A stretch of 64,000 nucleotides of DNA, taken from an uncultured Fluviicola sp. (GTDB taxonomy: Bacteria; Bacteroidota; Bacteroidia; Flavobacteriales; Crocinitomicaceae). The notes under the pieces were generated by a model that saw nothing but the letters and a program-made list of their open reading frames with translations, had not been told where the DNA came from and did no database searches. Positions 12,048 to 25,451 of this stretch are shown one piece after another. Within the stretch, counting starts at the first letter, position 1, and every line of letters begins with the position of its first letter. The translations under genes and the position numbers were made by a program. Where the stretch lies: contig NZ_CAMLDC010000014.1 of NCBI RefSeq assembly GCF_946478805.1, forward strand, positions 1 through 64,000, in the 5' to 3' direction.

Positions 12048-14054
12048 ATGAGACAATTACTAGTAATTTTATTCCTTCTACCCGCTTTCGGTTGGAGTCA
12101 GAAGGAAACCAAGGCGGAAGCTTCCATCCAAAAAGTGACCGTTTTCAAAGAAGGGGCTCAGGTGGAACATTCCAAAGAATTGTCTTTGGGTACCGGGAAA
12201 CAAGTCGTGGTTTTTCAAAAACTGACGGACTTTTTAGACCCGAGTTCCATTCAATTGAAATGTTCCGAATCGGCAACGATCCTAAGCGTCCGCACAAGAA
12301 AGAACTTCGACGATAAATCAATTGCTGAAACGGAACTGACTGAAAAGAATGACCGCAAAAAGGTCTTGGAAAAACAGGAACGTGCCTTGCGGGATGAATA
12401 CAAAGTATTACTACTGGACGAACAGCTTTTGTTGAAGAATAACAGCCTGAGCAGTCAGCAGCAAGCAATGAAAATTGCCGAACTGAAGGAAGCTTCGACT
12501 TTCTTTCATGCGAAGTTGTCGGAAATCAATACCCGCAAGTCGCAACTGGATTCGGAAATCGAGGCAGTGGTCCGCAAGATCAACACGATCGAACAGGAAA
12601 TCAATACAAGAAAAGGCCTTCCGGTGATCAATTACACGGAAGTGGAGGTGGAATTGGATGTCTTAAAGTCGGGAAACGTGAATTTTGATTTCACATACAT
12701 CACACACAAAGCTTCCTGGAAACCGTATTACGATATGCGAAGTAACGGTGTTGGTGCTCCCGTTTTATTGGAAGCAAAAGGGTTAGTGACACAAAGTACA
12801 GGAATTGACTGGAAAGATGTGAAATTGATCCTTTCAACCAATGATCCCTACGACAATACCTTGGAACCAACGATTGATCCGTGGTATGTGAATTACTACA
12901 CTCCTGCACCACGAAAACAAACCATTAATCGCTATGTCCCCGAATACAATTTCGACGGGGAAACCATCCATGGTGAAATTACGGACGCAACTTCAGGTGA
13001 ACCGCTTGCTTTTGCAAAGATTTCAATGAACAACAATCCGTTGACTTCATTCACAACAGACGCAGTGGGACATTTCTCATTCGCTGTTCCAAGAGGAGAA
13101 CGCAGTTATACCATTTCTTATTTAGGATATCATTCCCAATATGTCAACATCACAGCTCCTTACATCAAAACACAATTGTATCCGGAAACAGTTGCAATGG
13201 AAACCTTGAATAATCCGTATGGAGGTAATATAGAAAATCCATTTGCCAATGGTGATGGATTGGATAAGGACTTGGGATACTTCGATAAGAATATCCAAGA
13301 AGTTACCGTTAGCGGTGGATATGCTAAAAAATCACGAAACGATGCATACAGCAGTAGTAAACTGAGTAAAAAAGATATTCAACACCTCCCTGCAAGGAAA
13401 AGTTCCATGATAGCATCTGTTTCAATCGCAAATCAGGTCGAAAAAGATCTGCGCATGGAATTCCAGATCGAGACACCATTTTCCGTTCCTTCGGACGATG
13501 CGGATCACAGAGTGGCAATTGCTACGTACCAAATGAAAGCAGATTACGAATACCATGCGGTTCCGAAACTGGATGAATCGGTTTACCTGGTGGCACAAAT
13601 CTCCGGTTGGGAAAAATTGAACCTGTTGAATGGCGAATCGAACTTATACTTTGACGGAACTTATATCGGGAAAAGTTTTATCGACGTGAATTCTTCGAAA
13701 GATACCTTGAGCTTCTCTTTAGGAAAAGACAAGAAAATTGTCATCAACAGGAAACGCAGCGAGGAAATGAGTAAAACACGCTTACTTGGGAACCGCTACA
13801 AATATGAAGTGACCTGGGATTTCACTGTTAGAAATAACGGTGGTGCAGCGATTCCGATTATCGTAAAAGATCACTTTCCAATTTCTATCAATGATGACAT
13901 CAAAGTGAAACAAGGAAGCTACCTTGGCGCGACTTTGAATGAAAAAACGGGAATCCTGACATGGAAATTCACCACAAACAAAGGGGAAACAAAACAATTC
14001 AAATTTGATTACCAAGTGGATTACGGGAAAAATCAACCTGTTTATTTGGAGTGA
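12048..14054 (+). CDS. MuiA-like DUF4140/DUF4139 protein, copy 1
   Basis: This encodes 668 residues with a signal peptide ending near FGWSQ. The DUF4140 domain follows (about 28-115), then a coiled-coil region rich in K/E/Q (about 110-190) and the DUF4139 beta region (ITHKASWKPYYDMRSN near 220). A carboxypeptidase-D regulatory-like insert (IHGEITDATSGEPLAF near 305-375) interrupts it. A short stretch like the start of a TonB plug (NIQEVTVSGGYAKKS near 415) comes before DUF4139 resumes to the C-terminus. It is annotated in many genomes as mucoidy inhibitor MuiA family; the function is unknown. It is almost identical to the next gene apart from residues about 380-465. Confidence 0.85.
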   Translation: MRQLLVILFLLPAFGWSQKETKAEASIQKVTVFKEGAQVEHSKELSLGTGKQVVVFQKLTDFLDPSSIQLKCSESATILSVRTRKNFDDKSIAETELTEKNDRKKVLEKQERALRDEYKVLLLDEQLLLKNNSLSSQQQAMKIAELKEASTFFHAKLSEINTRKSQLDSEIEAVVRKINTIEQEINTRKGLPVINYTEVEVELDVLKSGNVNFDFTYITHKASWKPYYDMRSNGVGAPVLLEAKGLVTQSTGIDWKDVKLILSTNDPYDNTLEPTIDPWYVNYYTPAPRKQTINRYVPEYNFDGETIHGEITDATSGEPLAFAKISMNNNPLTSFTTDAVGHFSFAVPRGERSYTISYLGYHSQYVNITAPYIKTQLYPETVAMETLNNPYGGNIENPFANGDGLDKDLGYFDKNIQEVTVSGGYAKKSRNDAYSSSKLSKKDIQHLPARKSSMIASVSIANQVEKDLRMEFQIETPFSVPSDDADHRVAIATYQMKADYEYHAVPKLDESVYLVAQISGWEKLNLLNGESNLYFDGTYIGKSFIDVNSSKDTLSFSLGKDKKIVINRKRSEEMSKTRLLGNRYKYEVTWDFTVRNNGGAAIPIIVKDHFPISINDDIKVKQGSYLGATLNEKTGILTWKFTTNKGETKQFKFDYQVDYGKNQPVYLE

Positions 14055-14092
14055 CACATTCAGTAACCAGAACATTAAGAAATAGATCAATT

Positions 14093-16084
14093 ATGAAACA
14101 AATAGTATTTATCCTACTCCTTCTACCCGCTTTCGGATGGAGTCAGAAGGAAACAAAGGCAGAAGCTTCCATCCAAAAAGTGACCGTTTTTAAGGAAGGC
14201 GCTCAAGTGGAACATTCCAAAGAATTGTCTTTGGGCACTGGGAAACAAGTCGTTGTTTTTCAAAAACTGACCGACTTCCTCGATCCGAGTTCCATTCAAT
14301 TGAAATGCTCCGAATCAGCAACGATCTTAAGCGTCCGTACAAGGAAGAACTTCGACGATAAATCAATTGCTGAAACGGAACTGACTGAAAAAAACGACCG
14401 CAAAAAGGCTTTGGAAAAACAAGAACGAACCTTGCGGGATGAATACAAAGTATTGTTATTGGACGAACAGCTTTTATTGAAGAATAACAGTTTGAGCAGT
14501 CAGCAACAAGCTATGAAAATCGCCGAACTGAAAGAAGCATCTACTTTCTTCCACGCCAAGTTGTCTGAAATCAATACGCGCAAATCACAATTGGATTCGG
14601 AAATCGAGGCGGTGGTCCGCAAGATCAATACGATTGAACAGGAAATCAATACGCGAAAAGGCCTTCCGGTTATCAATTACACAGAAGTGGAAGTAGAATT
14701 GGATGTCTTAAAGTCAGGAAATGTTGATTTCGATTTCACGTACATCACCCACAAAGCTTCCTGGAAACCGTATTACGATATGCGAAGCAACGGGGTTGGG
14801 GCTCCCGTTTTATTGGAAGCAAAAGGATTGGTGACACAAAGCACCGGAATTGACTGGAAAAATGTGAAATTGATTCTTTCAACCAATGATCCCTACGACA
14901 ATACCCAGGAACCTACAATCGATCCGTGGTATGTGAATTACTATACCCCGGCGCCAAGAAAACAGATTGTCGAGCGTTATGTTCCGGAATACAATTTCGA
15001 CGGCGAAACCATTCACGGGGAAATCACAGATGCAACTTCAGGTGAACCACTTGCTTTTGCAAAGATTTCAATGAACAACAATCCGTTGAATTCATTCACG
15101 ACTGATGCAGCGGGACATTTTTCATTCGCTGTTCCAAGAGGAGAACGCAGTTACACCATTTCCTATTTAGGATACCACTCACAATATGTCAACATCACCG
15201 CTCCTTACATCAAAACGCAACTTTATCCGGAAACAATCGCAATGGATGAACTGAAAGCATTAGATGATGCAGAGTATGCACCTTACATAATAAATGGAGC
15301 GGTCATCTCCCAAAATGTAAGTGGACTTATCTCCCAAACACCCGGTGTTAATTCCAATAACAGAAAATCCCGTTTAAAAGGATCAAGAGATTATAAATTG
15401 GAAGAATCGGAAATTTCTCATGATCTGGACGCTTCCGGAAGATATGACGTATCGATTGCCGAACAAGTAGAGAAAGACCTACGAATGGAATTCCAAATCG
15501 AAACACCGTTCTCCGTTCCGTCGGATGATGCGGATCACCGAGTGGCAATTGCAACTTATCAAATGAAAGCAGATTACGAATACCACGCGGTTCCGAAACT
15601 GGATGAATCGGTTTATTTAGTGGCGCAAATATCCGGTTGGGAAAAATTGAACCTGTTGAACGGTGAATCCAACCTGTATTTTGACGGAACTTACATTGGT
15701 AAGAGCTACATCGATGTAAATTCTTCAAAAGACACATTGAGCTTCTCTTTAGGAAAAGACAAGAAGATTGTAATCAACAGGAAACGCAGCGAGGAAATGA
15801 GTAAGACCCGTTTGCTTGGAAACCGCTACAAATATGAAGTGACTTGGGATTTCACCGTTAGAAACAACGGTGGTGCAGCCATTCCGATTATCGTAAAAGA
15901 CCACTTCCCTATTTCTATCAATGACGACATCAAAGTGAAACAAGGAAGCTACCTTGGCGCGACTTTGGATGAAAAAACCGGGATCCTGACTTGGAAATTC
16001 ACTACAAACAAAGGGGAAACAAAACAATTCAAATTTGATTACCAAGTGGACTACGGGAAAAATGAACCTGTTTATTTAGAATAA
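14093..16084 (+). CDS. MuiA-like DUF4140/DUF4139 protein, copy 2
   Basis: This encodes 663 residues and is a tandem paralogue of the preceding gene, 38 bp downstream. The ATG at 14093 matches the start of copy 1 (signal peptide, FGWSQKETKAEAS); an in-frame GTG at 14051 overlaps the upstream stop and is unlikely. Domain order is the same. The central segment differs: here it reads VSGLISQTPGVNSNN and LKGSRDY, like the later part of a TonB plug, whereas copy 1 keeps the earlier part. Outside that segment only about twenty residues differ, and many codons differ synonymously. It is followed by a strong terminator at 16192. Function unknown; envelope location inferred from the signal peptide. Confidence 0.85.
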   Translation: MKQIVFILLLLPAFGWSQKETKAEASIQKVTVFKEGAQVEHSKELSLGTGKQVVVFQKLTDFLDPSSIQLKCSESATILSVRTRKNFDDKSIAETELTEKNDRKKALEKQERTLRDEYKVLLLDEQLLLKNNSLSSQQQAMKIAELKEASTFFHAKLSEINTRKSQLDSEIEAVVRKINTIEQEINTRKGLPVINYTEVEVELDVLKSGNVDFDFTYITHKASWKPYYDMRSNGVGAPVLLEAKGLVTQSTGIDWKNVKLILSTNDPYDNTQEPTIDPWYVNYYTPAPRKQIVERYVPEYNFDGETIHGEITDATSGEPLAFAKISMNNNPLNSFTTDAAGHFSFAVPRGERSYTISYLGYHSQYVNITAPYIKTQLYPETIAMDELKALDDAEYAPYIINGAVISQNVSGLISQTPGVNSNNRKSRLKGSRDYKLEESEISHDLDASGRYDVSIAEQVEKDLRMEFQIETPFSVPSDDADHRVAIATYQMKADYEYHAVPKLDESVYLVAQISGWEKLNLLNGESNLYFDGTYIGKSYIDVNSSKDTLSFSLGKDKKIVINRKRSEEMSKTRLLGNRYKYEVTWDFTVRNNGGAAIPIIVKDHFPISINDDIKVKQGSYLGATLDEKTGILTWKFTTNKGETKQFKFDYQVDYGKNEPVYLE

Positions 16085-16524: not shown

Positions 16525-17763
16525 TTACAGAAGGTCAAATTGTTTCCAAAAATCGGGATAACTTTTAGCTACCGATTCTGCGTTTGTAAGAATTGTTTCA
16601 CCAACGGCAATGGTTCCGGCTATTCCTAAGCACATTGCAATGCGATGGTCATAGTGCGAATCAACCTCCGCACCTTCCAGTTTTCCCGTTCCATAAACCA
16701 ACATGGAATCAGCCTCCAGGTCAATTCTCAATCCCATTTTAGCAAACTCAGCCTGAAGTGCAATTCCCCTGTTACTTTCCTTGTGAATAAGCCTGTTCGC
16801 ACCTTGTATTTTAGAAATCCCGTTGCATTTGGCTGCCAAAACGACCAAAGCCGGAAATAGATCCGGGCAATCCGTTGCATCAAATTCAAATGGCCGGATC
16901 GCCGAACCATCTACCCCGATCCTTTGATCTTCAAATGTGACTTTACATCCCGCGTGCATCAAGGCTTCTAACAATGCTTTATCCGCCTGCAAGCTGCGCA
17001 TACTCAATCCTGAAACAGAGATCGGATGACCTATCGCTGCAGCAACCAACCAATAACTTGCCGAGCTCCAATCAGACTCGATCTCGTATTCAGTTGCTTT
17101 ATACGATTGATTCCCGGCAATTTCAAAGACATTTTTTTCGTTCCCAATAAGAACACCGAATTGCTTGAGTGTACTTATTGTCATTTGGATATATGGTCCT
17201 GATCTCATGTCGATAACAGTCAACGAGCTGGAATTCTTGCTTCGTGGCAATGCCATTAACAAACCCGAAATGAATTGGGAACTCAGTGAGCCGTCAACTT
17301 CCAGATCAGTTCCCACGAGCGGTCCTTTGACTTCAATCGGTAAATATCCTTGATTGGTTGAAATTTCACATCCGAATCGGGGTAAAATGGTATCGAAAAA
17401 ATTCATAGGTCTCGAAAGCAGGCTCCCCCTTCCTGTCAAGGTGATTTTCCGATCAAAACCGGAAGCAACACAGGTAAGCAAACGCAGGCCTAAACCAGAT
17501 TCACCCGCAGACAATTCCAGGTTTCCGGGAGGATCCGTAATTCCGGTAATTTCGATCCTGGAATCGGATATTGGTGTGACTTTCGCTCCCAGCTCAACAA
17601 CTGCTTTCAGCATCGCTTGCTCATCATCGCTCTTTCCAACTCCGGACAAAACGGAAGTTCCATCAGCTAGAGCAGCACAAAGAATCGCTCTTTGGGAATC
17701 ACTTTTGGATGCGGGAATCCGGATGGTTCCGGAAATCAAACCGGGTCGGATAACCTGTTTCAT
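16525..17763 (-). CDS. aroA: 3-phosphoshikimate 1-carboxyvinyltransferase (EPSP synthase)
   Basis: AroA joins phosphoenolpyruvate to shikimate-3-phosphate, the sixth step of the chorismate pathway. The 412 residues match the family. Visible motifs are PASKSDSQRAILCAAL (substrate-binding Lys/Ser near residue 20), GESGLGLRLL near 85 and DHRIAMCL near 370. Its ATG overlaps the stop of the upstream DAHP synthase gene by 4 bp (ATGA at 17760-17763), so the two are translationally coupled and share the attenuated leader upstream. Confidence 0.95.
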   Translation of the reverse strand: MKQVIRPGLISGTIRIPASKSDSQRAILCAALADGTSVLSGVGKSDDEQAMLKAVVELGAKVTPISDSRIEITGITDPPGNLELSAGESGLGLRLLTCVASGFDRKITLTGRGSLLSRPMNFFDTILPRFGCEISTNQGYLPIEVKGPLVGTDLEVDGSLSSQFISGLLMALPRSKNSSSLTVIDMRSGPYIQMTISTLKQFGVLIGNEKNVFEIAGNQSYKATEYEIESDWSSASYWLVAAAIGHPISVSGLSMRSLQADKALLEALMHAGCKVTFEDQRIGVDGSAIRPFEFDATDCPDLFPALVVLAAKCNGISKIQGANRLIHKESNRGIALQAEFAKMGLRIDLEADSMLVYGTGKLEGAEVDSHYDHRIAMCLGIAGTIAVGETILTNAESVAKSYPDFWKQFDLL

Positions 17764-18842
17764 TGTTCTTCTTTATCTGCAGAATTATTCATGACCCGTA
17801 CCTGGTGACGAATGGATTCCTGGTGAATCGCGTCCATCACCTGGCGCACGAAGCGATCACTCAATTTATATTCGGATGCTTTATTCAACCTGGCTGAAAT
17901 CACTTTCTTCCAATGCTCAGGTTGTAGAATCGTAATGTTGTGTTCCTTTTTAAAAATCCCCAAATCCTCGCTCAACTGCATCCGCGCGGTCAGGATATCG
18001 AATAAACGGTCATCCAGATCGCCTATTTTTTCGCGGATCACAGAAATTTGCTCACTATCCAGTTTTTCAGAATTTTGAGAGCGCAAGACCAATGAATCCA
18101 ATAAAATCCCCAGGTTTTGCGGAGTTAATTGTTGCGCAGCATCCGACCAGGCAGCATCCGGATTCCGATGGGTTTCAATCATCAATCCATCAAAATTCAA
18201 GTCCATTGCCTTCTGGGAAACCTCTAATAATAAATTGCGATTCCCTGTAATATGGCTTGGATCATTGATAATTGGCAAATCAGGAAGTCGTTCATGAAGT
18301 GCTATTGGAATTTCCCAGTTAGGAACATTCCTGTATTTCGCATGTTTATAAACTGAGAAACCACGATGAATGGCTCCCAATTCTGTAATTCCCGATTTTT
18401 CCAAACGTTCAAAAGCACCAATCCACAATTCCAAATCCGGATTAACCGGGTTCTTCACCAAAACCGGAATTTTCATTCCTTTCAATGAATCGGCGATTTC
18501 CTGGACTGCAAAAGGATTAACGGTTGTGCGGGCTCCAATCCAAAGCACATCCACTCCTGCTTTCAGTGCCTGTTCCACATGTTTGGCATTGGCAACCTCA
18601 GTTGTCGTAGGAACACCCAATTCCTTTCCTGCGTTCACCAACCAACTTAATCCAACTTCGCCGACACCTTCAAATGAATCCGGTCTCGTACGAGGTTTCC
18701 AGATTCCGGCCCGTAAGATGTCTATTTGACAAAATTCCTGGATCTGAAGTGCTGTTTCCATCACTTGTTCTTCTGTTTCAGCACTACAAGGTCCTGCTAT
18801 GAGAATGGGTCTCTTTCCTCCTTTTTGAATGATGCTACTCAT
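17760..18842 (-). CDS. Bifunctional DAHP synthase / chorismate mutase
   Basis: Residues 1-250 form a class-I beta DAHP synthase (KDO8P-synthase-like: PILIAGPCSAETEEQ, RAGIWKPRTRPDSFEG, INDPSHITGNR), which condenses PEP and erythrose-4-phosphate. Residues about 260-350 form an AroQ-type chorismate mutase (IREKIGDLDDRLFDILTAR), which makes prephenate. The fusion places the entry of the pathway and the Phe/Tyr branch on one chain, as known in Bacteroidota. The gene is first of an operon with aroA. Its leader carries an aromatic-rich peptide and terminator, so control by attenuation is predicted. Confidence 0.93.
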   Translation of the reverse strand: MSSIIQKGGKRPILIAGPCSAETEEQVMETALQIQEFCQIDILRAGIWKPRTRPDSFEGVGEVGLSWLVNAGKELGVPTTTEVANAKHVEQALKAGVDVLWIGARTTVNPFAVQEIADSLKGMKIPVLVKNPVNPDLELWIGAFERLEKSGITELGAIHRGFSVYKHAKYRNVPNWEIPIALHERLPDLPIINDPSHITGNRNLLLEVSQKAMDLNFDGLMIETHRNPDAAWSDAAQQLTPQNLGILLDSLVLRSQNSEKLDSEQISVIREKIGDLDDRLFDILTARMQLSEDLGIFKKEHNITILQPEHWKKVISARLNKASEYKLSDRFVRQVMDAIHQESIRHQVRVMNNSADKEEQ

Positions 18843-18872: not shown

Positions 18873-18913
18873 ATTAAAACAAAAATCCCGCTCCAAAACG
18901 AAGCGGGATTGAG
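18873..18913 (-). promoter_or_regulatory. Attenuator terminator before DAHP synthase
   Basis: Read on the minus strand, AATCCCGCT (18910-18902) and AGCGGGATT (18892-18884) form a 9-bp stem with a 9-nt loop, followed by TTTTTGTTTT. It lies between the leader ORF and the gene start, not behind a gene. An alternative pairing is possible: AAGCTCATTGAG (18950-18939), which overlaps the leader stop codon, with CTCAATCCCGCTT (18913-18901). That would trap the left terminator arm and act as antiterminator. Confidence 0.75.
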
Positions 18914-18939
18914 ATATATTAACATCTATTGCCTCGAAC

Positions 18940-18993
18940 TCAATGAGCTTCGGGACACCAATAAAAATTCAAACAAAATGCTGTGTTTTTCAT
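18940..18993 (-). CDS. Aromatic leader peptide MKNTAFCLNFYWCPEAH
   Basis: This 17-codon ORF has an ATG 9 nt after a full-consensus -7 box (TAGTTTTG). It encodes consecutive Phe-Tyr-Trp at codons 10-12 and a further Phe at codon 6. It ends 27 nt before the attenuator stem. A ribosome stalled at codons 10-12 for lack of Phe-, Tyr- or Trp-tRNA would leave the antiterminator segment free; one that reaches the stop would cover it. The coding function is inferred from composition, position and the alternative RNA folds. Confidence 0.72.
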   Translation of the reverse strand: MKNTAFCLNFYWCPEAH

Positions 18994-19002
18994 CTTCGGG
19001 GA

Positions 19003-19010
19003 CAAAACTA
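19003..19010 (-). promoter_or_regulatory. -7 box TAGTTTTG of the DAHP synthase leader
   Basis: TAGTTTTG on the minus strand is a full match to TAnnTTTG. It places the transcript start close to the leader ORF. A -33 element is not obvious. Confidence 0.55.
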
Positions 19011-19064: not shown

Positions 19065-19094
19065 TTGGATTTTTCATTTATGCATGTAAATTTG
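19065..19094 (+). promoter_or_regulatory. trp promoter: TTG - 19 nt - TAAATTTG
   Basis: TTG at 19065-19067 and TAAATTTG at 19087-19094 are separated by 19 nt, the expected arrangement of a Bacteroidetes primary promoter. The predicted start is about 19099-19101, just upstream of the Trp leader ORF. Confidence 0.7.
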
Positions 19095-19116: not shown

Positions 19117-19164
19117 ATGAAATTTTGGTGGTGCGGGTTAACTGAAACAGTGACTCACGCATAA
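19117..19164 (+). CDS. trpL: trp leader peptide MKFWWCGLTETVTHA
   Basis: This 15-codon ORF has tandem Trp codons (TGGTGG at 19126-19131). An in-frame ATG at 19099 would extend it by six residues but coincides with the predicted transcript start, so 19117 is preferred. The stop is 21 nt before the attenuator stem. The hexamer AGTGAC (19149-19154) inside the ORF is complementary to GTCACT (19194-19199) in the terminator stem and loop. Stalling at Trp codons would expose it, and reading to the stop would hide it. Confidence 0.8.
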   Translation: MKFWWCGLTETVTHA

Positions 19165-19185
19165 TTCATTATATCTATTTTTTTG

Positions 19186-19218
19186 AACGGCTTGTCACTT
19201 TTGGCAAGCCGTTTTTTT
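19186..19218 (+). promoter_or_regulatory. trp operon attenuator terminator
   Basis: AACGGCTTGTC (19186-19196) pairs with GGCAAGCCGTT (19203-19213) through 11 positions including one G-U, with a 6-nt loop, followed by a run of seven T. It lies 20 nt before the trpE ATG and behind the Trp-rich leader ORF. Confidence 0.85.
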
Positions 19219-19238: not shown

Positions 19239-20618
19239 ATGCATATTTACACACAAGATTACACTTTCAACGCTGACAATTTTACTCCGGTAGGCCTCTA
19301 TCTGTCTTTCAGAAACCGTTTCCGCTCACCCTGCTTATTGGAATGCAACGATTACAGCGACCGGACATCGAGCAAATCGTATATCGGATTGAATCCGTTG
19401 ATTGATATCCGGGTTTTTCGAACAACGATTCAAATACAGGAATCGGATACCATTCATCTGGTTCCCATTGCTAATCCACAGAAAATAACCCGGCAAATTC
19501 AAGGATTGCTGGCCAAGTACTCATTCAAAAATGAGTTTGAAGACAATGGTTTTCTGAGCTATTTCAGTTTCGAATTTGCACATTTTGAAGAGAATATCAC
19601 CACCTCACAATCCCAATTGAATCTTCCTTTGGCTCGTTTCACCCTTTTTGAATACCTGATCATACTGGATCATTTCCACGACCAGGGGCGTATTTTGTCG
19701 AACACTTGCAAACCCGGTAAAAAAAGTGATTCCGAGTTCCTGGAGTTACTTCAATTCAACAAGGCTTCCGAATTGCCATTTGAAGTATCCAATGCTGAAC
19801 AAGCCCTGGTTTCCGAAGTCGATTTCCTGGAATTGGTTCAACAGGCAAAAAAACATATTTACCTGGGCGATGTATTCCAATTAGTTGTATCCAGGCCCTT
19901 TGAGCAAGAATTTTTCGGGGATGATTTTCAGGTTTACAGGCAGCTAAGAAGACTCAATCCGTCACCCTATCTTTTTTACCTGGATATGGAATCTTACCGC
20001 TTGTTCGGTTCTTCACCCGAAACACAGATTCAACTGAAGAATGGAATTGCGGAAATCCACCCGATTGCCGGAACCGTTCGGAAAACAGGTGACCGGGCTA
20101 CTGACGCCCAGCTTGTTCAACAATTAATCCTGGATGAAAAAGAAAATGCGGAACATACCATGTTGGTTGATCTGGCCCGAAATGATTTGAGCAAATTCTG
20201 CCATTCGGTAAAGATTGAATCCTTTAAGGAAGTGCAATATTTCTCACACGTGATTCACCTGGTTTCGAAAGTAAGGGCACAAAGCGAAGAAAATCCGCTT
20301 TCATTATTCAGCGGAACTTTCCCCGCGGGAACTCTTTCAGGAACCCCCAAACCAAAAGCCTTGCAGCTTCTCAATTTGTATGAGAAAAAGGAACGTGGTT
20401 TTTACGGAGGAGCTGTCGGATTCATTCATACCAATGGAAATATGAACCTGGCAATCATAATCCGGAGTGCATTGAGTTCCAACAACAAGCTTTGCTATCA
20501 AGCCGGAGCGGGAATCGTCTTGGATTCCATTCCCGAAAACGAACTAATGGAAGTAACAAATAAACTCGGGGCAATCCGTTCGGCGATCCAATGTGCCTCA
20601 AAACCAAATTCACTATGA
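19239..20618 (+). CDS. trpE: Anthranilate synthase component I
   Basis: TrpE converts chorismate to anthranilate with ammonia supplied by TrpG. The 459 residues carry the chorismate-binding fold in the C-terminal half: RLNPSPYLFYL, FGSSPETQIQ, HPIAGTVRKTGD, DEKENAEHTMLVDLARND and GTFPAGTLSGTPKPKA. The N-terminal CLLECNDYSDR stretch corresponds to the Trp feedback site (usually LLES); the Ser position is Cys here. It is first of seven genes and overlaps trpG by ATGA. Confidence 0.96.
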   Translation: MHIYTQDYTFNADNFTPVGLYLSFRNRFRSPCLLECNDYSDRTSSKSYIGLNPLIDIRVFRTTIQIQESDTIHLVPIANPQKITRQIQGLLAKYSFKNEFEDNGFLSYFSFEFAHFEENITTSQSQLNLPLARFTLFEYLIILDHFHDQGRILSNTCKPGKKSDSEFLELLQFNKASELPFEVSNAEQALVSEVDFLELVQQAKKHIYLGDVFQLVVSRPFEQEFFGDDFQVYRQLRRLNPSPYLFYLDMESYRLFGSSPETQIQLKNGIAEIHPIAGTVRKTGDRATDAQLVQQLILDEKENAEHTMLVDLARNDLSKFCHSVKIESFKEVQYFSHVIHLVSKVRAQSEENPLSLFSGTFPAGTLSGTPKPKALQLLNLYEKKERGFYGGAVGFIHTNGNMNLAIIIRSALSSNNKLCYQAGAGIVLDSIPENELMEVTNKLGAIRSAIQCASKPNSL

Positions 20619-21181
20619 AAATTGCAGTCATTGACAACTTTGATTCCTTTGTATTTAACCTCATCCGCTATATCAGGGAAGAAAAGCACGAGGTTTTTGT
20701 TCAGCGGAATAATCAAATCGATTTTAAGATTTTGGAATCCGCTGATGCGATTTTGCTTTCTCCGGGTCCGGGAATTCCTGCAGAAGCAGGTAGGCTTTTA
20801 GAAATTATCCAACAATTTCACGGAAGAAAACCCATTTTAGGCGTTTGCCTCGGACACCAGGCAATTGCAGAGCATTTCGGAGATGTGCTCATTCCTTGTC
20901 CTGAACCGATACACGGAAAATCTTCCCGGATAACCATTTTCGGGGAATGCGGTATTTTTCAGGATCTTCCAAAAGAACTGGAAGTTGGAAGATATCACAG
21001 TTGGCAAACCGAAATTTCCCCATCAAGTGAATTGGAAATTACTGCTACAACTCCAGATGCGGTTGTCATGGCAATCCAACACAAAAAACATCCGACCATC
21101 GGAGTGCAATTTCATCCCGAATCGATCCTGACTCCACTTGGACGGAAAATGATTCAAAACTGGTTAAAAACAAGCATATGA
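20615..21181 (+). CDS. trpG: Anthranilate synthase component II (glutamine amidotransferase)
   Basis: This encodes 188 residues from the ATG at 20615, which overlaps the trpE stop by 4 bp. It starts with the family pattern IAVIDNFDSFVFNLIRYI. The class-I amidotransferase triad is visible: Cys in GVCLGHQAIAE (near residue 80), and His and Glu in GVQFHPESI (near 165). It delivers ammonia to TrpE. No extension or fusion is seen. Confidence 0.95.
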   Translation: MKIAVIDNFDSFVFNLIRYIREEKHEVFVQRNNQIDFKILESADAILLSPGPGIPAEAGRLLEIIQQFHGRKPILGVCLGHQAIAEHFGDVLIPCPEPIHGKSSRITIFGECGIFQDLPKELEVGRYHSWQTEISPSSELEITATTPDAVVMAIQHKKHPTIGVQFHPESILTPLGRKMIQNWLKTSI

Positions 21182-22158
21182 ATTACCTGAAAAAACTAAT
21201 TGATAATAACATATTAAGCCGCGAAGAAGCAAGATCATGCATGATCCGAATCGGAAGAAATGAAATTCCCGAAACACAAGTTGTTGCGATCATAACAAGC
21301 ATTCAATTACGCGGATTACAACTTCCCGAATTGGAAGGATTTCGGGATGCCCTCCTGGAATTGGCGAAACCTGTCACTCTTGAGACAGAGCACAGCATTG
21401 ATTGTTGTGGAACCGGTGGAGACGGAAAAAACACCTTCAATATTTCCACCTTGGCTTCATTTATCCTCGCTTCCATGGGATACAAAGTAATTAAGCACGG
21501 AAATTACGGAGTCAGTTCGCTCTGCGGATCTTCCACAGTCCTGGAATACCTGGGATACGAATTCTCCTCGGACTCAATGGAATTACAAAACCAATTGGAT
21601 CGGAACAATATTTGTTTCCTTCACGCTCCCATATTCCATCATGCATTATTGCAGTTGGCTCCTTTGCGGAAATCTTTGGGGATTACAACACTTTTCAATA
21701 GTCTCGGACCTTTGGTGAACCCACATGATTCTACGCATCAATTGACCGGAACTCATTCCCTGGAACTTGCAAAACAATACCAGCATATTCTGAAATCAAA
21801 ACGAACAAATTTCACGGTTCTCCATGGGCTTTCCGGGTATGACGAACTCACTTTTATTGGCGGAACCCGGATTCTCAAAGCAACAAGTGATGAACTCATC
21901 CAAGATGCTCCGAATCGATTCCAGATCAGACCCGAAGAGATTTCGGGAGGAAATTCGGTTTCGGAATCTGCGCACATTTTCACTTCCATTTTACGAGGAG
22001 AAGGAACGAAAAGTCAGAATACGGTACTCGCAGGAAATGTTGCTTTGGCACTCCAAACCATGGATCCTGAATTACCCTTCGATTCTGCATTTGAAAAAGC
22101 AAACGAACACATCCAAAGCGGAAAGTCCTTTTACACATTCAAAAAAGTCTGTTTATGA
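21178..22158 (+). CDS. trpD: Anthranilate phosphoribosyltransferase
   Basis: TrpD attaches phosphoribose from PRPP to anthranilate. The 326 residues include the glycine-rich PRPP loop CCGTGGDGKNTFNIST (near residue 75-90), KHGNYGVSSLCGS and FNSLGPLVNP. Its ATG overlaps the trpG stop (ATGA). It is slightly shorter than most TrpD proteins (about 335-345), with no obvious missing motif. Confidence 0.95.
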   Translation: MNYLKKLIDNNILSREEARSCMIRIGRNEIPETQVVAIITSIQLRGLQLPELEGFRDALLELAKPVTLETEHSIDCCGTGGDGKNTFNISTLASFILASMGYKVIKHGNYGVSSLCGSSTVLEYLGYEFSSDSMELQNQLDRNNICFLHAPIFHHALLQLAPLRKSLGITTLFNSLGPLVNPHDSTHQLTGTHSLELAKQYQHILKSKRTNFTVLHGLSGYDELTFIGGTRILKATSDELIQDAPNRFQIRPEEISGGNSVSESAHIFTSILRGEGTKSQNTVLAGNVALALQTMDPELPFDSAFEKANEHIQSGKSFYTFKKVCL

Positions 22159-22928
22159 TACCTGTTTTAGACAAAATCGTTGCCAACAAACGCCACGAAA
22201 TCCAACAATTAAAGCAACAAATCGGGTTGTCTGATTATATTCAAAGTCCACACTTTAGCCGATCGGTCTTTTCTATCAGGGAACGGATTCAAAATCACTT
22301 TGGGATCATTGCAGAAATCAAGCGAAAATCTCCAAGTGCCGGCGAGATCAATCCCGGTCTGAATGTTCTTTCCCAAGCTCAAATCTATGAGAGTCAAGGT
22401 GCTACCGGAATATCTGTTTTAACCGATCATTCCTATTTCGGCGGTTCGATTGAAGACCTGGAACAAATCCGTTCCCAAACCCATTTACCCTTACTTCGGA
22501 AAGAGTTCATTGTGGACGAATACCAATTGTTCGAAAGTAAAGCAGCCGGTGCGGATTCTATTTTACTGATCGCTTCAATCCTGGAAAAAGAAGAAGCCCA
22601 TGATTTGACCATTGTTGCGAAAAGCCTGGGCTTGGAAGTGATCTTTGAAATTCACTCTTTTGAAGAATTGGATAAACTCAATGACGAAATTGACATCCTG
22701 ATGGTAAACAACCGGAATCTGAAAACCCAGGAAACCACTTTGGAACATTCCTTCAGATTGGCATCCTACTTACCTAGAAATACGGTGAGCATTTCAGCTT
22801 CCGGGATTTCAACTCCGGATGAGTTGAAGGAATTGAATGCCCTTGGATTCAACGGAGCATTAATCGGCGAAAGTTTGTTGAAAGGAAAATTCAAATTCGA
22901 AGAATCTTTCAAAATGATCGCCTTATGA
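22155..22928 (+). CDS. trpC: Indole-3-glycerol phosphate synthase
   Basis: TrpC closes the indole ring from CdRP. The 257-residue TIM barrel shows IIAEIKRKSPSAGEI (catalytic Lys near 57), VLTDHSYFGGS, LLRKEFIVDEYQ (Lys near 115), VNNRNLKTQE and SASGIS. It is not fused to TrpF, unlike in enterobacteria. It overlaps trpD and trpF by 4 bp each. Confidence 0.95.
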   Translation: MIPVLDKIVANKRHEIQQLKQQIGLSDYIQSPHFSRSVFSIRERIQNHFGIIAEIKRKSPSAGEINPGLNVLSQAQIYESQGATGISVLTDHSYFGGSIEDLEQIRSQTHLPLLRKEFIVDEYQLFESKAAGADSILLIASILEKEEAHDLTIVAKSLGLEVIFEIHSFEELDKLNDEIDILMVNNRNLKTQETTLEHSFRLASYLPRNTVSISASGISTPDELKELNALGFNGALIGESLLKGKFKFEESFKMIAL

Positions 22929-23524
22929 AGATCAAAATTTGCGGATGCAGCATCGAACAGTTTTATCCCGGGTTGTTTGATCTGGATGGAGTCGATTATT
23001 ACGGGTTCATCTTTTATCCCGATTCTCCTCGCTTTGTCACACGAACCCCGGTGATTTCAGGAAAGAAAGTCGGAGTTTTTGTGAATGCACCTTTGGAGTT
23101 TATCCTCCAAAAAGTCAAGGAAGAAGGATTGGATGTCGTTCAATTTCACGGAACAGAATCGCCTGCAGATATACGGAAAGTAAAATTGAATGTACTGAAA
23201 TGGAAAGCTTTCGGGATTCAAAATCCAGGTGACTTCAAGCAATGCAAAGCCTATGAAGGAATTGTAGACGCCTTCCTTTTTGACACCAAAAGTCCACGGT
23301 TCGGAGGAACAGGAAAGGCATTTAATTGGGAATTGCTCGACGAATACCATGGAGAAACACCCTTTTTACTTAGTGGTGGAATTTCGCCAAAGCATGCGGA
23401 ACGGTTAAGGAAACTGAATCACCCGAAACTCATTGGAATTGATTTGAACAGTCGATTTGAGATTGCTCCAAAACAAAAAAACGTCCCTTTGATTGAATCA
23501 TTCATTAAACAATTGAAACCATGA
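22925..23524 (+). CDS. trpF: Phosphoribosylanthranilate isomerase
   Basis: TrpF carries out the Amadori rearrangement of phosphoribosylanthranilate to CdRP. The 199-residue barrel starts MKIKICGCS with the catalytic Cys at residue 6 and shows [35 protein letters not shown] (general acid Asp), LSGGISP and GIDLNSRFE. It is placed between trpC and trpB with ATGA overlaps on both sides. Confidence 0.94.
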
Positions 23525-24711
23525 AAATTGCTAAAACCGTCCATCCGGACGAATTCGGGTTCTATGGAGAATTCGGTGGTGCTTACATTCCCGAATTACT
23601 TCGACCGGCAGTGGAAGAATTAGAAACTGCTTTCAGAAATTACTGTTTCACCAATTCATTCAGATTGGAATACCTGGATTTGTTGAAGAATTATGTGGGA
23701 AGACCGACACCTTTGTATTTCGCTAAGAATTACTCTCAGAAATACGGTGCGAAAATTTATTTCAAACGGGAAGACCTCTGTCATACCGGAGCGCACAAAA
23801 TCAATAATACGATAGGTCAAATCTTACTCGCCAAATATATGGGAAAGACCGAGATCATCGCTGAAACCGGAGCCGGGCAACACGGCGTCGCAACCGCAAC
23901 CGTTTGTGCGTTAATGGGATTGAACTGCATAGTCTATATGGGCGAAAAGGATATGGAACGCCAAGCTCCGAATGTGCAGCGAATGAAAATGCTGGGAGCA
24001 GAAGTGCGTTCGGCAACTTGCGGCAGTAAAACATTAAAAGACGCAACCAATGAAGCAATCCGTCACTGGATCAATTTTCCGGATTCTTACTATCTGATCG
24101 GTTCAGTTGTCGGACCTCATCCCTATCCCGAAATGGTCGCTTACTTTCAATCCATCATATCGGAAGAAATAACGGAACAATTGCGGGAAATCGAATCAGC
24201 ATCACCGACCAAAATAATTGCTTGTGTAGGAGGCGGAAGTAATGCTGCCGGAGCCTTTTATCATTTTTATTCCAATCCTGAAGTCGAGTTGATTGCTGTT
24301 GAAGCAGCAGGAGAAGGATTGAAGTCAGGGAAAAGCGCCGCAACATCGGTTTTGGGTTCTCCCGGAGTTTTACATGGAAGTTTGACCCTGTTGATGCAAG
24401 ATTCTTTTGGCCAGGTTACGGAACCACACAGTATTTCCGCAGGATTGGATTATCCGGGTATCGGGCCGCTACATGCCTACACCATTTCTTCCGGAAGAAC
24501 CAAATCAGTCGTTGTCAGTGATTCGGAGGCATTACATGCTGCATTGGAATGCAGCCGATTGGAAGGAATCATTCCCGCACTTGAAAGCGCACATGCCATT
24601 GCAGCGCTTAAAAAATTAGGATTCACCTCAGAAGAAATAATCATCATCAATCTTTCCGGAAGAGGTGACAAAGACATTAATACGTATCAAAAAGCATTTC
24701 AAGATCTATGA
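23521..24711 (+). CDS. trpB: Tryptophan synthase beta chain
   Basis: TrpB condenses indole and serine using pyridoxal phosphate. The 396 residues have the usual length. Key sites are [13 protein letters not shown] with the PLP-binding Lys near residue 94, [13 protein letters not shown] with the catalytic Glu near 117, and the phosphate loop [10 protein letters not shown] near 240. It opens with [16 protein letters not shown], typical of TrpB1. It overlaps trpF and trpA by 4 bp. Confidence 0.97.
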
Positions 24712-25451
24712 ATCCATTCAAAAAAAACGAGAAATCCCTCAGCCTGTTCGTTACAGCCGGTTATCCCGAAAAAGAGAGTTTAACACAACAGATCCTCGAT
24801 CTGCAAGAACGGGGAATTGATTTCATCGAAATTGGAATTCCATTCTCAGACCCATTGGCAGATGGACCGGTGATTCAGGAAACCAGTTCGATTGCATTGA
24901 AAAACGGAATGAATTTAAACCTTCTGTTTGAACAGCTCACAGCAATCAGGGATCAGGTCAAAATTCCATTGGTTCTTATGGGCTACCTGAATCCCATTCT
25001 TCAATTTGGATTGGACTCCTTTTTGGAACAATGTGAATCAGTCGGGATTTCAGGATTGATCATTCCGGATCTTTCTTTCGAATTGGTTCAACATAAATAC
25101 AAACGCACTTTTGATTCTCATCGGGTTCCACTGATTTACCTGGTCACACCTTCCTCTACCAATGCACGGATCACCCAAATAGTACAAGCAAGCCGGTCGT
25201 CTTTCATTTATCTTGTCGGACAAAATAAAATTACCGGTTCTTCCTATTCCTTATCGGCAAATGCAAAACGTTATTCGGAAGTGAAATCACTTTGTGGAGA
25301 AGTTCCTTTATTCCTTGGTTTTGGAATTTCAAGTTCCGCTCAAAAGAAGGAAGCTTTCAACTACCTGGATGGTGTAATCGTCGGATCTGCCTATCTGCAA
25401 GCACTTTCCATTGGAAAAGAAGAAGAATTTATTGAAAACCTGGTCAGTTAA
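24708..25451 (+). CDS. trpA: Tryptophan synthase alpha chain
   Basis: TrpA cleaves indole-3-glycerol phosphate and channels indole to TrpB. The 247-residue barrel shows [15 protein letters not shown] with catalytic Glu near 45 and Asp near 56, [16 protein letters not shown] and GFGISS. It is the last trp gene. Compared with typical TrpA (about 260-270) it is on the short side, but all core motifs are present. The next gene has its own -7 box. Confidence 0.95.

Follow-up and report, generated by a model that had tools for sequence, protein, structure and literature searches.

The DNA analysed here (that is, the window) is a stretch of 64,000 nucleotides from an uncultured Fluviicola sp., in which a minus-strand operon for a DAHP synthase–chorismate mutase fusion and EPSP synthase (aroA) lies divergently to a plus-strand trp operon (Table 1). 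Between the two, the DAHP synthase gene is preceded by a promoter-like box, a short leader ORF with adjacent Phe, Tyr and Trp codons and an intrinsic terminator. The box matches TAnnTTTG, the consensus of Bacteroidota promoter boxes, and the 5′ untranslated region of the leader is predicted to be very short. Folded in isolation, the terminator hairpin has a minimum free energy of −17.1 kcal/mol; once the right terminator arm is removed, the best fold of the leader is an antiterminator in which AAGC..ATTGAG pairs with CTCAAT..GCTT (−13.2 kcal/mol). An earlier sequence-only reading of this DNA had described the same box, ORF with TTT TAT TGG, terminator and DAHP synthase gene, all of which are present as it described them, and the antiterminator overlapping the leader stop that it proposed is this best fold. 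Elsewhere in the window, two tandem plus-strand ORFs (12048-14054 and 14051-16084; 668 and 677 amino acids) are near-identical over most of their length, and probably reflect a recent duplication.

Table 1. Features of the DAHP synthase–aroA leader, its operon and the divergent trp operon, in window positions
Feature	Position	Strand	Remarks
Promoter-like box TAGTTTTG	19010-19003	−	9 bases upstream of leader ATG; matches TAnnTTTG
Leader ORF MKNTAFCLNFYWCPEAH	18940..18993 (ATG 18993, TGA 18942-18940)	−	17 codons; TTT TAT TGG (Phe-Tyr-Trp) = codons 10-12
Candidate antiterminator strand, region	18931..18951	−	two versions, each able to pair with the terminator 5′ arm
Antiterminator version 1, GAAGC..ATTGAG	18951-18939	−	that of the sequence-only reading; spans the leader stop codon
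Antiterminator version 2, CGAGGC	18936-18931	−	3 bases past the leader stop; form common to four Fluviicola sequences
Spacer, leader stop to hairpin		−	29 bases
Predicted intrinsic terminator hairpin AATCCCGCTTCG-TTT-TGGAGCGGGATT	18910-18884	−	12 base pairs; T-rich tract to about 18873
DAHP synthase–chorismate mutase fusion	17760..18842 (ATG 18842)	−	360 amino acids; PF00793 and PF01817
aroA (EPSP synthase)	16525..17763	−	PF00275; 4-base overlap with the DAHP synthase gene
Promoter-like box TAAATTTG of the trp leader	19087..19094	+	from sequence
trp leader ORF MKFWWCGLTETVTHA	19117..19164	+	alternative start 19099, MIFQQTMKFWW...
trp leader terminator	19185..19214	+	upstream of trpE at 19239
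trp operon	19239..25451	+	trpE and trpD by Pfam; G, C, F, B and A named from sequences only

How often chance would supply these parts was gauged by dinucleotide shuffling of the intergenic region (396 bases). An ATG-initiated ORF 10-30 codons long, in which F, Y and W make up a single run of three residues, arose in 154 of 20,000 shuffles, and none of 3,000 shuffles gave an ORF followed 15-45 bases beyond by a terminator scoring at least 14 (a cut-off on the scale of this analysis, which the real window terminator passes). No Rfam family matched the DAHP synthase leader, whether in the window (searched at gathering scores) or in ten relatives (E values up to 1); hits to BTnc231 and snoR53Y in the ten relatives did not reach the gathering scores of those families and were put down to chance. 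The Bacteroid-trp family (RF01692) likewise had no match in the window at its gathering score, and sub-threshold matches on the strand and at the place of the divergent trp leader were found in 3 of the 10 relatives scanned (L011, L017 and L020; 45.3, 43.6 and 38.8 bits against a cut-off of 49).

For comparison, loci were collected from one genome-contig scan and a search of 240 genomes of the family of Fluviicola chungangensis (G002), 235 of which have a DAHP synthase match. These gave 231 loci, among them the window and a further five at second copies of the gene (L226-L230); removal of identical upstream sequences left 164, in which those five are still counted. Requiring a W-containing ORF that lies 15-45 bases before a terminator whose stem has at most one mismatch, we found a leader with terminator at 41 of the 164 loci, the window included; three further leaders whose terminators the scan had missed (L019, L150 and L153) were added by eye from nine loci, mostly in genomes with trp genes, bringing the leader-peptide attenuator to 44 of 164 non-identical DAHP synthase loci. 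In 20 of the 41, a TAnnTTTG box is found no more than 35 bases from the leader ATG, and in 38 a TTTG no more than 30 bases from it; their terminator 5′ arms comprise 32 distinct sequences. For counts by genome, 145 genomes were taken from the top of the match list with gene fragments left out, and 143 were used after removal of two with too short an upstream sequence (L155/G077 and L187/G036); close relatives are hence over-represented in these counts, and incomplete metagenome-assembled genomes can mimic the absence of a gene or leader. A rule blind to W found a leader and terminator in 41 of the 143 genomes, and Trp is present in 40 of those 41. In the remaining one (G107; L142/L039), a genome in which trpD was not found, leader and terminator are retained with no Trp codon (MFNSTRILQIVIGG), possibly as a decaying leader. 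One locus close to the window (L005; DAHP synthase 92% identical) comes from a record titled Glaciecola amylolytica THG-3.7 (CP034120.1); it groups in the Fluviicola family, and the record is probably mislabelled. On the opposite strand, a Trp leader was accepted for 38 of the 39 loci with divergent trpE (the window among them, and the trp leader of L090 added by hand), none being found for L013. The DAHP synthase leader most likely stands back-to-back with a trp attenuator.

Pairing between the stretch around the leader stop and the terminator 5′ arm was compared with dinucleotide shuffles at the 41 loci. The mean z was −1.4 and p was below 0.05 in 14 loci, whereas in the other 27 pairing was not significantly above shuffles (window p 0.06). 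When strands were swapped among 27 clusters, own pairs averaged −10.6 kcal/mol versus −8.4 kcal/mol for swapped ones, with a mean gain of 2.3 kcal/mol, and 4 of 100,000 permutations did as well, a result that residual relatedness can inflate. The leader-stop strand does therefore co-vary with the terminator 5′ arm, as the sequence-only reading had suggested checking. The helix of that reading gives the window leader its best fold, yet L001 has not kept the first half of this helix. The second version is the one shared instead: in the window, L001, L002 and L005, CGAGGC, CGAAGT or CGAAGC lies 3-4 bases past the stop opposite GCTTCG, and L006 has CGAAAC opposite GTTTCG (that is, a two-sided change); L090 departs from this pattern. 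Spacing is narrow as well, the last Trp codon lying four or five codons upstream of the stop in 30 of 41 loci (five in the window), and, given the footprint of a ribosome, this distance would leave the strand at or just after the stop free when a ribosome waits on Trp. By sequence and folding, an ORF with codons for an end product, a predicted terminator and an antiterminator exclusive with it are all found, with pairing that is weak in single loci. Together, conservation, co-variation and spacing support the leader-peptide attenuator that the sequence-only reading had proposed.

The presence of the leader follows the trp genes. A trpD match was found in 52 of the 240 family genomes and prephenate dehydratase (PF00800) in 29. 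Counting a genome as trp+ if trpD was found or trpE is adjacent, the leader is present in 40 of 50 trp+ versus 3 of 93 trp− genomes under the first rule, and in 40 of 50 versus 4 of 93 when one looser rule is used uniformly for the 143; with trpD alone, the first rule gives 33 of 46 genomes with the gene versus 7 of 97 without. Corrected for relatedness on a protein tree rather than a genome tree (DAHP synthase, FastTree), the link comprises 21 independent pairs, 12.6 of which agree on average and none of which disagree (median p 0.0002), whereas for prephenate dehydratase on the same tree the median p is 0.375, and within trp+ genomes that gene had no effect on leader presence (16 of 21 versus 24 of 29). 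Loss of trp may simply have removed the shared intergenic region, leader included; W leaders persist in G014, G015 and G070, where trpD is on another contig and DAHP synthase lies well inside its own. Five Fluviicola-like genomes (G058-G062) whose DAHP synthase is 88-95% identical to that of the window have neither a trpD match nor a leader; in these, DAHP synthase and aroA are still adjacent, and a prephenate dehydratase match is absent too.

Building on the parts, their conservation, the co-varying pairing and the trp link, which sequence comparison establishes, we infer the transcription start, leader translation, stalling, termination and response to amino acids. We consider it probable that the DAHP synthase–aroA leader is a ribosome-mediated attenuator that senses tRNA-Trp, with the Phe and Tyr codons as accessories. 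When charged tRNA-Trp is plentiful, the ribosome would reach the leader stop and cover the strand just beyond it, allowing the terminator to form and transcription to stop before the operon. When charged tRNA-Trp is scarce, the ribosome would pause at the Trp codon, five codons upstream of the stop, and the strand at and after the stop, left free, could pair with the terminator 5′ arm, allowing transcription to continue into the operon. Codons for Phe and Tyr immediately upstream of Trp could lengthen the delay, as a secondary input that varies among lineages. Paired with the divergent trp leader, the DAHP synthase leader would let one cue open both the Trp branch and the common pathway. Counting against this model are the 10 of 50 trp+ genomes without a detected leader and the three or four trp− genomes with one, the many loci (window included) in which pairing does not significantly exceed shuffles, and the half-helix lost in L001. 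The window leader also has just one codon for Trp, against two or three in most of the 34 leaders that remain distinct after collapsing by similarity; according to modelling, sensitivity is lower when regulatory codons make up a small part of the leader (PMC1183508), so the window leader would be less sensitive.

Two alternatives differ from the Trp attenuator with accessory codons only in the role that they give to the Phe and Tyr codons. In the first, the attenuator senses Trp alone and those codons are inert, as relics of a Phe-making ancestor or products of AT-rich composition. That the leader tracks trp and not prephenate dehydratase agrees with this, as does the replacement of Tyr in close relatives: the nearest leader cores read N-F-Y-W (L001), N-F-I-W (L005) and S-F-R-W-H-F (L002), F-R-W being also the form in F. 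chungangensis. Among the 34 distinct leaders, in which the scan demanded W, Trp occurs in 34, Phe in 25 and Tyr in 17, with Phe and Tyr varying among them; a consecutive F-Y-W run is found in five of the 44 leaders (the window, L001, L017, L125 and L019), and we rejected it as a conserved feature. The sequence-only reading had tied itself to the F-Y-W codons being kept along with the terminator, and relatives do keep the terminator and Trp, but mostly without the run. Inert codons are harder to reconcile with the composition around Trp. In 27 non-redundant pairs of a DAHP synthase leader and the trp leader of the same locus, F or Y occupies 40 of 175 positions within three residues of Trp in the former versus 14 of 284 in the latter (Wilcoxon p 0.0002), a more than fourfold excess over the matched control, and F or Y is also commoner there than in the remainder of the DAHP synthase leader peptides (17 of 199). 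Phe and Tyr beside Trp in these predicted peptides are hence not noise. Moreover, FFYWY and FYWW leaders occur in genomes that gave no prephenate dehydratase match, which sits poorly with inert relics. We regard inert Phe and Tyr codons as plausible, while leaning against them.

In the second alternative, Phe, Tyr and Trp codons are each regulatory, and the operon opens whenever one of the three amino acids runs short. The enrichment of F and Y beside Trp speaks for this also, and, judging from the sequence, a ribosome halted on any one of these codons should leave the antiterminator strand free. All three residues stand in the core around Trp in 8 of the 34 distinct leaders, which provides some examples but falls short of the conservation of all three codons expected of a multivalent aromatic attenuator, and Y and F vary freely among leaders. 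Nor does the frequency of F or Y near Trp clearly depend on whether a genome has prephenate dehydratase (0.26, n = 12, with it versus 0.20, n = 22, without; p 0.14, non-redundant); without collapsing, the figures for all leaders are 0.28 (n = 16) versus 0.19 (n = 27; p 0.02). As this difference is unclear, we rejected the ability to make Phe as an explanation of the F and Y codons. A second DAHP synthase–chorismate mutase copy was also set aside as the determinant of Phe/Tyr content, given that G004, G005, G053 and G121 have one and their leaders still contain F or Y. Further against a three-way sensor, the closest relatives of the window (G001-G003), which retain the leader and trp, have no match to prephenate dehydratase (PF00800) or prephenate dehydrogenase (PF02153), so the operon there would probably do little against a shortage of Phe or Tyr; absence of PF02153 alone says little, since it is missing from all ten genomes tested, some of which have prephenate dehydratase. 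A biopterin-dependent hydroxylase is present in G001-G003. If these absences hold for the organism of the window, its chorismate would feed Trp and not Phe or Tyr. One Tyr and one Trp codon should, in addition, mean weak sensitivity. The claim of the sequence-only reading that one peptide senses all three amino acids is thus weakly supported: F and Y are clearly enriched relative to trp leaders, but relatives mostly lack the F-Y-W run, the leader is linked to trp and not to prephenate dehydratase, and the known Phe/Tyr enzymes were not found in the nearest genomes. We think a three-way sensor doubtful, and equally would not expect, with some reservation, that the Phe/Tyr input matters in the window leader. 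A third alternative, that a constitutive 5′ terminator or other RNA regulator acts here with the ORF incidental, draws on leader translation being deduced from sequence and on the lack of an Rfam match, but is very improbable given that ORF, aromatic codons, Trp-to-stop spacing and terminator co-occur across diverged loci and are linked to trp.

Aromatic leader candidates also occur at other loci of the common and Phe/Tyr pathways. At prephenate dehydratase loci (L311-L340), 25 of 30 have at least one aromatic leader ORF candidate with a terminator, mostly rich in Phe and Tyr, a few candidates being on the wrong strand because both strands were scanned. Trp is sometimes mixed into these leaders (L322, L330 and L340, in which one candidate is a Trp leader), and this mixing favours a three-way sensor. 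Phe/Tyr-rich leaders precede two of the five second-copy DAHP synthase loci (L229 and L230) and 6 of 60 order-level regions (L252, L258, L265, L266, L275 and L282), which came from a search of 150 genomes and were scanned over about 2.5 kb upstream; the other 54 had no aromatic leader within that distance. Some prephenate dehydratase genes are preceded by a pair of aromatic leader ORFs, one after the other, with a terminator no more than 50 bases from each (L230 in G121, L266, L275/L311 in G246 and L328 in G129); these are possible tandem attenuators. Since Phe/Tyr-rich leaders stand at prephenate dehydratase operons and at second copies of the DAHP synthase gene, the predicted leader alphabet is graded across three operon kinds, from Trp (trp operon) through Trp with Phe/Tyr (DAHP synthase–aroA) to Phe/Tyr (phe operon). 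That the 17-residue leader integrates the charging of tRNA-Phe, tRNA-Tyr and tRNA-Trp and forms, with the trp and phe-operon leaders (some of them tandem), a graded three-level attenuation network in Bacteroidota nevertheless seems to us unlikely.

Leader peptides whose codons cover more than one amino acid made by a branched pathway have a precedent in the multivalent attenuator of Escherichia coli ilvGEDA, reportedly described by Lawther and Hatfield in 1980; that system concerns branched-chain amino acids and was studied experimentally, whereas in the leaders described here Trp dominates. The trpL and pheL leader sequences of E. coli each hold several codons for one amino acid. For Corynebacterium glutamicum, Neshat et al. 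are said to have described the AroR leader in 2014. AroR is described as a Phe-Tyr-Phe leader before the DAHP synthase gene aroF (PMC11802643, PMC4046766), and a review reports that it responds to the availability of Phe but not to that of Tyr (PMC11802643). It resembles the leader described here as a short peptide with adjacent aromatic codons that controls a DAHP synthase gene by attenuation, but it lacks Trp, belongs to Actinobacteria and is likened by description rather than by homology of the leaders. Given AroR, mixed aromatic codons in the leader peptide of a DAHP synthase gene are nothing new, which bears on the remark of the sequence-only reading that it knew of no description. A table on Shewanella bears on it too, listing an 'attenuator sensing tyr-tRNA' for aroF (citing E. 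coli work) and 'possible transcription termination' for aroH (PMC2659441, table 3). These are also DAHP synthase genes with predicted attenuators, although in proteobacteria and with no mixed-aromatic leader peptide named in that table. E. coli trpL and pheL are, in the review cited for AroR, leader-peptide attenuators (PMC11802643), and share with the present leader the peptide, competing hairpins and terminator, but serve one amino acid each and genes other than DAHP synthase. Within Bacteroidota, the Bacteroid-trp leader RNA (RF01692; Weinberg et al. 2010, PMC2864571) is, as summarized there, a Trp leader; its weak matches to the divergent trp strand make it the counterpart of the opposite-strand neighbour and not of the DAHP synthase leader, which has no match. 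A putative attenuator is listed upstream of pheA>hisHb>aroA-aroQ>tyrA in Bacteroides thetaiotaomicron (PMC1173090, table 7), likewise with a DAHP synthase–chorismate mutase fusion; that operon is a Phe/Tyr one for which the table names no leader peptide, and resembles the F/Y leaders at other copies found here. For Flavobacterium psychrophilum, leader-peptide attenuation before amino-acid operons is suggested in one report (PMC9723704). Literature searches found nothing joining leader peptide, DAHP synthase and bacteroid names; what is new, as far as these searches go, is the family in Bacteroidota, with Phe/Tyr flanking a Trp core, and its back-to-back placement with a predicted trp attenuator.

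In summary, we add a family of Bacteroidota leader-peptide attenuators on the first gene of the shikimate pathway, predicted by comparison and unmatched in our Rfam searches. The three kinds of leader within one family offer a natural test of how codon content determines what an attenuator senses, and of whether leaders with codons for several amino acids really integrate signals. If the three-way reading were true, one leader would set entry into the shikimate pathway from the charging of the Phe, Tyr and Trp tRNAs.
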